Positions 47,695 through 52,170 of a stretch of 64,000 bases of DNA are shown piece after piece (the stretch's first letter is position 1; each line of letters starts with the position of its first letter). The stretch covers positions 124,001 through 188,000 of the forward strand of contig NZ_JABAEF010000001.1 of NCBI RefSeq assembly GCF_023701945.1. Reading direction: 5' to 3'. The position numbers and the translations under genes are program-made. The stretch is from Rhizobium sp. CG5. GTDB taxonomy: Bacteria > Pseudomonadota > Alphaproteobacteria > Rhizobiales > Rhizobiaceae. Below the pieces are notes generated by a model. That model was not told the origin of the DNA and did not search any database. It saw nothing but the letters and a program-made list of their open reading frames with translations.

Positions 47695-49884
<2,190 letters not shown>

Positions 49885-50327: not shown

Positions 50328-51209
50328 TTACAGGATCAGGCGGGCGGCGGCGGCGCCCAGGGCAGCGGGAAAGCCGAGCACGATCATCGAGATGATGATT
50401 TCCACCGAGGCGGTGTCGTTGATGCGCTCGAAGGTCCACAGCGCGTAGAGGCTGATCATTAGCGCAATGGCATAGCCGGGCAGGGTGAAGCGGATGAAGG
50501 CATGCCACCAGGGCGTCTCCGGCGACAGTTCATGGCCACCTTCAAATGACACCGCATAGACGAAGCCGTGCATCAGGCCGATCGACAGGACGAGGATGGC
50601 CAGCGCATGCCAGGGCGTCATCTTGTAGGCCAGCACGATCATCTCTTCGGTCGGGGCGACATTGAGCGACAGGAACAGGGCGCCGGCCGCCATCAGGAAC
50701 AGTTCGCCGCCATAGCTGGTCTTGCGCTCCTGTTCCTCGTCATCCTCTTCGTCGTCCTCGTCCTCGTCCTCGTCATCCGCATCGCCGGCCAGCTGGCTGC
50801 GGCCGAGCATGGCGCCGATGCTGGCGGGAACGGCCTGCAGGGCGATCTTGCCGATCCACTCGCTGAGCGGCATGTCGCCCTTCAAGAGACCAAAGGCCAG
50901 GAGGATCACGGTGCTGGCGACGATGCCGATGCCATAGGCGACGATGGCATCGCGGATCGCTTCGCGCCAGGTCAGGGTCTTTTCAAAACCGATGCGGTGG
51001 GACAGCACGATCAGCAGGGGGATATTCAGCAGCATCAGCAGCAGCAGGCGTTCGCGGCTGATGTAGAAGCCGAGATACCACATTTCCATGGTCATCAGCA
51101 TCGGCAGGGCAAACAGCAGGGCACCGGCCAGCCCGCGCGCCAGCCCCATCACAAAGCGATTGCGTTTAAGACGACGCGCGTCCTGCCTGGCTTCGACCGC
51201 TGAAATCAT
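50328..51209 (-). CDS. TIGR02587-type integral membrane protein with long acidic loop
   Basis: 293 residues with about seven or eight membrane helices. Distinctive is a strongly acidic run in the middle (about residues 147-165, almost all Asp/Glu: DADDEDEDEDDEEDDEEQE), probably in a cytoplasmic loop. GELFLMAAGALFLSLNVAPT and EEMIVLAYKMTPWHALAILV follow it and look conserved. It matches my recollection of the TIGR02587 family, whose members occur beside TIGR02588 proteins, as here. Function unknown; the acidic run could bind cations. Confidence 0.82.
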   Translation of the reverse strand: MISAVEARQDARRLKRNRFVMGLARGLAGALLFALPMLMTMEMWYLGFYISRERLLLLMLLNIPLLIVLSHRIGFEKTLTWREAIRDAIVAYGIGIVASTVILLAFGLLKGDMPLSEWIGKIALQAVPASIGAMLGRSQLAGDADDEDEDEDDEEDDEEQERKTSYGGELFLMAAGALFLSLNVAPTEEMIVLAYKMTPWHALAILVLSIGLMHGFVYAVSFEGGHELSPETPWWHAFIRFTLPGYAIALMISLYALWTFERINDTASVEIIISMIVLGFPAALGAAAARLIL

Positions 51210-51549
51210 GATTGTTGCCGCTGCTCCCCGATGTGGGAGGGCAATCGCACACTAGAAAGCCCCTCTCTGGCCTGCCGGCCATCTCCCCCACAAGGGGGAG
51301 AAGACCCGGACGAACCCGCTCGCTTCTATCCATAGAGGGTGCGGCTGGGTTAAGCCCTCCCCCTTGTGGGGAGGGTTTGGGAGGGGACTGTCTTCAGATG
51401 CGATTGCCCTGCCCGATGTGGCGAGGTAATGCGGGCGAGGCGCAATTGTTCCATTCTAAAAAGGCAACCCAAAACCGCCCGCTAAACCGCGTCTGCGCTG
51501 CGTATGGTTGAGCGGACGACCAGCAGGCGCCCAAGACCCTGCCGGATCC
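51210..51549. other. Intergenic region holding the inverted-repeat element
   Basis: 340 bp between the TIGR02587 gene and a LysE gene. Most of it is the RIME/MITE-like element listed separately. The last 130 bp (51422-51549) show nothing recognisable. Confidence 0.7.
51227..51421. mobile_element. MITE/RIME-like intergenic element with terminal inverted repeats and flanking direct repeats
   Basis: Terminal inverted repeats of 12 bp are perfect: AGGGCAATCGCA at 51238-51249 and TGCGATTGCCCT at 51399-51410. Outside them lies a 10-bp direct repeat CCCGATGTGG at 51227-51236 and 51412-51421, each one base from the inverted repeat, as after target duplication. Inside are two GC-rich palindromes in opposite orientation, CTCCCCCACAAGGGGGAG (51283-51300) and CCTCCCCCTTGTGGGGAGG (51357-51373 region), which resemble rhizobial RIME-type repeats. 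There is no coding capacity, so it would move only with an enzyme supplied elsewhere. Confidence 0.65.
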
Positions 51550-52170
51550 TCAATTGCGTGTCGCGATAGCCGCCGCCGCTCCCCCCAAAGCGAGGGCCCC
51601 GATCCGGTTGGCCATGCGTGTGGCACGCGGGGTGCGCAAGAGATGCCGCGCCTTGTGTGCGAGGAAGGTCCAGCTCAGATCGATCGCCGCCAGCGTTGCC
51701 AGCGTCACGGCGGCGAGGATCGCCCATTCCTGTACCCCTGTCCTTGAAAGATCGATCAACGACGGCAGAAGGGCGAGGTAGAACACCATGATCTTGGGGT
51801 TGCCCAAGGTCAGCGCCATACCCGCACCGAACATCGACAATGGCGAGGTCCGCCGCGGAAGATCGTCAATGCCTTCGCCGACCGATTGGCGCCACATCTT
51901 GAAGGCCAGCCAGCAGAGATAGGCAATGCCGAGCCATTTCAGGACATGAAAGCCAAACTGGAAGGTTTGGGCCAGAGCGGTGAGGCCGGCCATCGCCATG
52001 GTCAGCCAGATCACTTCGCCGATCCACATGGCAGCCACGAAGGGGATTACGTCGCGCCATCCATTGGTGATCACACGCGATACCAGTGCGGCAATGCTCG
52101 GACCGGGTGTCCCTGCATTGAGCAGCAAAGCGCCTGCGAAGATGGCAATCGATAGCGGTTCCACGGACAC
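51550..52170 (-). CDS. LysE/RhtB-family exporter
   Basis: 206 residues, about six membrane helices. The signature NAGTPGPSIAALVSRVITNG lies after the first helix, followed by AAMWIGEVIWL, LKWLGIAYLCWLAFKMWR and ALTLGNPKIMVFYLALLPSL. Only distantly similar to the LysE protein at 14.2-14.8 kb, so not a recent duplicate. The substrate is unknown. The GTG at 52170 may not be the true start: the GTG at 52164 has GAGGG at better spacing. It lies downstream of the helicase gene on the same strand, but a hairpin separates them. Confidence 0.9.
   Translation of the reverse strand: MSVEPLSIAIFAGALLLNAGTPGPSIAALVSRVITNGWRDVIPFVAAMWIGEVIWLTMAMAGLTALAQTFQFGFHVLKWLGIAYLCWLAFKMWRQSVGEGIDDLPRRTSPLSMFGAGMALTLGNPKIMVFYLALLPSLIDLSRTGVQEWAILAAVTLATLAAIDLSWTFLAHKARHLLRTPRATRMANRIGALALGGAAAAIATRN

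Follow-up and report, generated by a model that had tools for sequence, protein, structure and literature searches.

We know of no settled answer to the question of how the palindromic repeats that are common in rhizobia have spread. Among them, RIMEs are intergenic repeats of Rhizobiaceae with two large palindromes. The name reportedly stands for Rhizobium-specific intergenic mosaic elements, as described by Osteras et al. in 1995. A locus of Rhizobium sp. CG5 raises this question in a tractable form: in the window, i.e. the whole stretch of 64,000 nucleotides that was analysed (C11:124001-188000 of a 6.50-Mb genome in 53 contigs), a repeat that appears to be of this kind lies between what look like the ends of a transposable unit. 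What, then, moved this unit, and how did the repeat come to be inside it? As argued below, positions 51237-51411 are very probably a non-autonomous miniature element (MITE) of the ISAs1 type, which carries a complete RIME-type two-hairpin cargo that mostly occurs without these ends, and which was presumably moved in trans.

Anatomy and setting of the element

The element starts 27 bases upstream of a DUF2391 gene and, on its other side, lies downstream of a LysE-type gene. The product of ligA in the window is about 80% identical to LigA of Rhizobium leguminosarum and Shinella in plasmid-collection records, in keeping with a host from the Rhizobiaceae. The features of the region are as follows.

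47719-49884: ligA
50328-51209, minus strand: DUF2391 gene
51227-51236: left 10-bp target duplication, CCCGATGTGG, identical to 51412-51421; a single copy is present in the empty site of the related genome G030
51237-51249, plus strand: left end of the element, G followed by the 12-bp inverted repeat AGGGCAATCGCA
51256-51389: cargo, a putative RIME-type repeat of 134 bp with two hairpins
51282-51301: cargo hairpin 1, TCTCCCCC-ACAA-GGGGGAGA, a palindrome; place of ISAs1 insertion in other copies of the family
51352-51378: cargo hairpin 2, AAGCCCTCCCC / GGGGAGGGTTT, a palindrome; interrupted by ISAs1 in the copy L019/L041
51399-51411, minus strand: right end of the element, 12-bp inverted repeat and one base
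51412-51421: right 10-bp target duplication, CCCGATGTGG
51550-52170, minus strand: LysE-type gene

The limits of the cargo (51256-51389) are set where matches to other copies usually start and end. The terminal inverted repeats expected of a MITE, AGGGCAATCGCA (51238-51249) and TGCGATTGCCCT (51399-51410), are perfect reverse complements over 12 of 12 bases, and one base stands between each of them and its direct repeat. Since this spacer base reads G on the plus strand at both ends, the outermost pair of the 175-bp element is mismatched (G-AGGGC ... GCCCT-G). The sequence bears out the preliminary description as regards the 10-bp direct repeats, the perfect inverted repeats of 12 bp, the single-base spacers and the pair of internal palindromes. 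The element is also short (175 bp) and devoid of a transposase gene, as a MITE should be: the sole open reading frame of at least 80 aa that overlaps it is a 99-aa frame with a TTG start, which extends through both flanks. The predicted RNA fold of 51237-51411 has an energy of -108.5 kcal/mol on the plus strand (z -8.67; none of 200 shuffles as low) and of -99 kcal/mol on the minus strand (z -6.18). A search of the region against Rfam returned, up to E 1, one match, which falls well under the gathering score of its family and lies outside the element; no RIME family was among the Rfam matches to the region. As to the neighbouring gene, the insertion of the element may have displaced or supplied a promoter or leader of the DUF2391 gene (window 51209-51237).

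An empty site in a related genome

In G030, a genome of the same genus, the orthologous DUF2391 gene is present and CTGCTCCCCGATGTGG runs directly into CGAGGTAATGCGG, with one uninterrupted CCCGATGTGG. The left flank is 94% identical to that in the window; rightwards, the two sequences agree at 24 of 31 positions and then diverge. This empty site defines the insertion as 51237-51411, i.e. 175 bp flanked by a 10-bp duplication of the target, which G030 holds as a single copy. Two further copies of the own genome, L007 and L003, are likewise missing from G030 at the corresponding places; because the bases at these sites have diverged, absence is demonstrated there, and not the exact joint. For a fourth copy, L002, no alignable sequence was found in G030 at the insertion itself, and for a copy of G030, L151, a search of the own genome placed the two flanks on different contigs.

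Copies with and without ends

A 195-bp query gave 50 matches in the own genome (E up to 0.01), of which 16 cover the core (query 35-150) and five reach both ends, so that several dispersed copies with these ends exist, as anticipated for a MITE. The other four copies with both ends are 83-93% identical to the window copy, and since copies differ from it by several percent or more, many of them may be old. Matches to the element at E up to 1e-12 are present in 44 of 63 genomes of the genus, the own genome included.

The core is more widespread than the ends. Forty distinct core copies were scored for the 17-base end motif in the 36 bases that flank the core on either side. They represent the highest-ranking matches of the own genome and, for the most part, the single best match of each other genome, and hence are no census. 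At a threshold of at least 12 of 17 bases, both ends were recognised in 11 copies, one end in six (four of which score at least 13) and neither end in 23; random places from the same loci reach this threshold in 39 of 2160 cases. Many of the end-less core copies belong to genomes in which no ISAs1 was detected. Similarly, 152 plasmid records contain the cargo repeat, most of them from Sinorhizobium (69) and Rhizobium (63), and only one place among these plasmid matches covers 80% of the element. In the 40 plasmid matches listed of the 152, the match stops before the ends of the element and a stretch corresponding to 20-153 recurs; 37 of these 40 have no annotated feature under the match, and the remaining three come from records without annotation.

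With its two hairpins, its occurrence in 152 plasmid records and the want of annotated features under 37 of the 40 listed matches, the cargo agrees with the definition of RIME given in the opening paragraph, and may be considered a RIME-type repeat on this basis. Like a RIME so defined, it is intergenic, contains two palindromes and is found across records of Rhizobiaceae; unlike a RIME, the repeat in the window has ISAs1-type ends on either side of it and a duplicated target around these.

The own genome also contains a second type of repeat, with about 130-150 bp between its ends (e.g. C22:461589-461627, plus strand, and C22:461728-461766, minus strand). Each end of this repeat seems to be formed by the first half of the core, the two being inverted with respect to each other. 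Separately, a core copy with decayed ends (L013, C9:24273-24424 of the own genome) sits inside another RIME-like palindrome, as judged by eye from its flanks.

The same ends with other cargo

A pattern scan of the genome collection for GGGAGGGG followed by the right end returned 29 stretches; as GGGAGGGG was required, hairpin cargo was favoured by the search itself. Twenty of the stretches belong to one Bauldia metagenome-assembled genome (MAG), two to Neorhizobium galegae and two to Sphingobium terrigena, and single stretches come from Mycoplana azooxidifex and from one MAG each of Rhizobiaceae, Sphingomonadales, Proteobacteria and Humisphaera. Judged by eye, N. galegae, Mycoplana and the Rhizobiaceae MAG have cargo of the RIME type, and in Bauldia and Sphingobium the same ends enclose other palindromes.

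In the 20 stretches of the Bauldia MAG, SJ509, an ISAs1-type end is seen beside a hairpin cargo that is not of the RIME type; several of the stretches are found at contig ends, as expected for a high-copy repeat. Their loci are as follows.

Bauldia SJ509: L170-L175, L177-L179, L181-L183, L185, L186, L188, L190-L192, L195, L197

Origin of the cargo

It could be argued that nothing was captured at all: the ISAs1-like ends would be original to the repeat, and the end-less RIME-type copies would be MITEs whose ends were lost or never kept. The six core copies with only one recognisable end are in line with such decay, and so is the tree of 44 cores, where the end-bearing copies are not grouped and 11 changes are needed for 20 end-bearing rows (mean of 14.7 changes in shuffles, with 18 of 500 as low as 11). 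The simplest form of capture, a single acquisition of the core by ISAs1 ends, was rejected, in that one clade of end-bearing cores is incompatible with the AU test (p-AU 0.0076; 15 end-bearing rows against 23, with five one-ended rows assigned to no group, in a run without L071). Both the mixing and the rejection would follow from a repeated loss of ends. The tree and the test are based, however, on some 135 columns, taken from repeats that may recombine, and on this number of columns repeated capture, repeated end loss and gene conversion are indistinguishable. What speaks against ends that are original to the repeat is that neither end is present in more than half of the scored core copies, many of these in genomes without detected ISAs1, that the 20-153 stretch recurs short of the ends in the listed plasmid matches of Rhizobium and Sinorhizobium, and that the same ends enclose other cargo in Bauldia and Sphingobium. 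We therefore consider this explanation unlikely and prefer to view the repeat as a cargo of the MITE. Since the interior is also found without these ends, the earlier suggestion that a RIME-type repeat is carried inside a transposable unit gains support.

An ISAs1 insertion sequence with matching ends

If the element is a MITE, which transposase could have moved it? Ends of the form CAGGG[CG][AT]ATCGCATATG recur in the own genome, where three contig ends and one contig start lie inside an element that bears them. Next to one of these insertion sequence (IS) ends, the DNA encodes the C-terminal 39 residues of a transposase. In a tblastn search of plasmids, the relatives of this peptide are annotated as belonging to the ISAs1 family, with 79.5% identity in Neorhizobium petrolearium and 41% in ISRm21 of Sinorhizobium meliloti; compared with Pfam and NCBIfam, the peptide, a short piece, matched no family. 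The 17-base end motif is common to the element and to the IS pieces of the own genome, as would be expected of an element derived from, or mobilised by, an ISAs1 insertion sequence, this IS being known in the own genome from its two ends, with its middle absent from the assembly. A DNA search for the IS end in the 63 genomes of the genus found it in the own genome only. In N. petrolearium, a copy of 661 bp (L094) shares these ends and is flanked by a duplication of 10 bp, CTACGGAAGG. The own genome additionally contains an intact ISAs1-family IS of another subgroup (L136, C6:144889-145821; 1246 bp), the first 11 bases of whose ends are common with the element-type ends; it is flanked by a 10-bp duplication, GGTGCATCCG, and its site is no RIME-type hairpin.

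In the ISAs1 family (NF033564; e.g. ISRm21 of S. meliloti), of which pieces are found in the same genome, the ends start with CAGGG, as in the element, and the target duplication is 10 bp in both measured copies (L136 and L094), again as in the element; unlike an IS of this family, the window element measures 175 bp and has no transposase gene. The ISAs1 transposase would bind the ends of the element and move it in trans, cutting and joining with a 10-bp stagger. Could a transposase outside the ISAs1 family, with ends that are similar by chance, move the element or have moved it? NF033564, which is matched in four of the 63 genomes of the genus, was found in none of the nine genomes tested that, besides the own one, hold MITEs with these ends, and this would fit another enzyme. 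The element, however, has its 17-base end motif in common with an IS that possesses an ISAs1-like transposase end, and the duplications are of the same 10 bp, which makes such an enzyme quite improbable. A chance arrangement of repeats can be dismissed altogether, despite the abundance of inverted repeats in this GC-rich region (11 12-bp inverted pairs in the window versus a mean of 4.5 in random sequences), because no other site of the window combines a 12-bp inverted pair (60-400 bp apart) with a 10-bp direct repeat at a distance of 0-1 base, the arrangement is absent from all 30 first-order Markov sequences of window length, and the copies and the empty site refute it.

ISAs1-type mobilisation in trans remains the preferred explanation. 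The copies with both ends, the single CCCGATGTGG in G030 and the ISAs1-family pieces at contig ends together answer the checks proposed in the preliminary description and uphold its reading of the locus as a MITE with a target duplication.

Where the insertion sequence and the MITEs land

Sixteen junctions with GCATATG ends were scored, 11 of them in G007, one in G028 and four in the own genome; this count omits L136 and L137, which have other ends, as well as L094 and L095. The motif YCTCCCC occurs within 20 bases before the IS at all 16 junctions, versus 112 of 12098 background places, and every one of the 16 reads as the apex of a RIME-type palindrome. L094 has ends of the GCATATG type, but its target, CTACGGAAGG, is no such hairpin, so that with L094 the count becomes 16 of 17. 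Among the four junctions of the own genome, those at the end of contig C13 and at the start of C32 fall in cargo hairpin 1 of core copies with surviving ISAs1-type ends (14/17 and 15/17, respectively), the one at L041 falls in hairpin 2 of a core copy on which no end was found, and the fourth, L042, is in another RIME-like palindrome. That the C13 end and the C32 start are the two sides of one IS insertion was considered and rejected: the bases that adjoin them do not repeat, as judged by eye, and they were therefore counted as two insertions.

In G007, ISAs1 with GCATATG ends is seen at 11 contig-end places (L138, L140, L142-L150), all in RIME-type hairpins; this genome has no match to the window element at E up to 1e-12.

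Over all collected loci there are 28 distinct end pairs, and in 21 of them the flanks match by at least 80% over 9-11 bases; the other seven are without a good duplication. The same rule is passed by 52 of 5054 random places and by 116 of 756 pairs whose two flanks come from different elements. This last figure reflects the similarity of many targets to one another, which inflates the matching of duplications. A perfect palindrome of eight pairs is found in 12 of the 21 targets versus 18 of 3747 control places. Eight of these 12 belong to Bauldia, two to Sphingobium and one each to N. galegae and the Rhizobiaceae MAG. Scores like those of controls were obtained for the six own-genus targets (4 to 6) and for that of Mycoplana (5), and the target of the window copy, with 5/8, has the commonest control score and is no better a palindrome than the control places. 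Two MITEs lie in hairpins: at L192, a Bauldia MITE is found inside a cargo hairpin of its own family (duplication 10/10; the host copy has lost its left part at a contig end and is poorly readable), and at L184, a MITE of N. galegae with RIME-type cargo is found in a RIME-like hairpin (duplication 11/11).

The cargo is best read as the kind of hairpin that the mobilising IS prefers. Since insertion sequences with these ends sit in C-rich/G-rich hairpins, those of the MITE cargo included, each new copy of the MITE probably adds to the sites at which the IS and further MITEs can land. The cargo would benefit the element by supplying such targets.

Relation to known systems

The insertion of IS elements into REP palindromes is known, S. 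meliloti included, where ISRm22 (10 of 10 copies) and ISRm19 (4 of 4) behave in this way (PMC1525189); Table 1 of the same paper also places ISRm21 in palindromic repeats in two of three cases. The REP-targeting IS of S. meliloti and Pseudomonas (PMC1525189) thus resemble the present case in that an IS resides in palindromic repeats, and differ from it in that the type 1 cases are IS3, IS4 and IS110 elements; the passages of that paper on these elements describe no MITE that has the ends of the targeting IS and carries its target. Another parallel is QMITE2 of Coxiella burnetii, a MITE with a palindromic repeat that is used as a target by IS1111 (PMC10969869). Here, too, a palindrome-bearing MITE is hit by an IS; the passage on QMITE2 is, however, silent on whether this MITE has IS1111 ends, whereas the ends are shared in the case described here. 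The text of the review PMC10969869 contains neither the word ISAs1 nor the word RIME. Among titles and abstract openings of the open-licence literature, we found no report of ISAs1 in connection with palindromic targets or MITEs, nor of MITEs that carry their own target; in this literature we likewise found no report of an ISAs1 MITE with RIME cargo.

Implications for the spread of palindromic repeats

In Rhizobium sp. CG5, one rhizobial repeat is enclosed in a unit that has the ends of a transposon, a duplicated target and a corresponding empty site, and pieces of an IS with the same ends are present in the genome. With the repeat in such a unit and the IS pieces in the same genome, the question of how these repeats spread becomes a simple test of transposition. 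Nested clusters of repeats would also be accounted for by an element that brings along landing sites of its own kind. Tentatively, and with more doubt than confidence, a general scenario can be envisaged in which ISAs1-type MITEs of Alphaproteobacteria carry their own preferred target, the cargo differing by lineage, so that each insertion would create more landing sites for IS and MITEs alike; such a loop may have contributed to the dispersal of palindromic intergenic repeats, those of the RIME type and others, both within species and between them.
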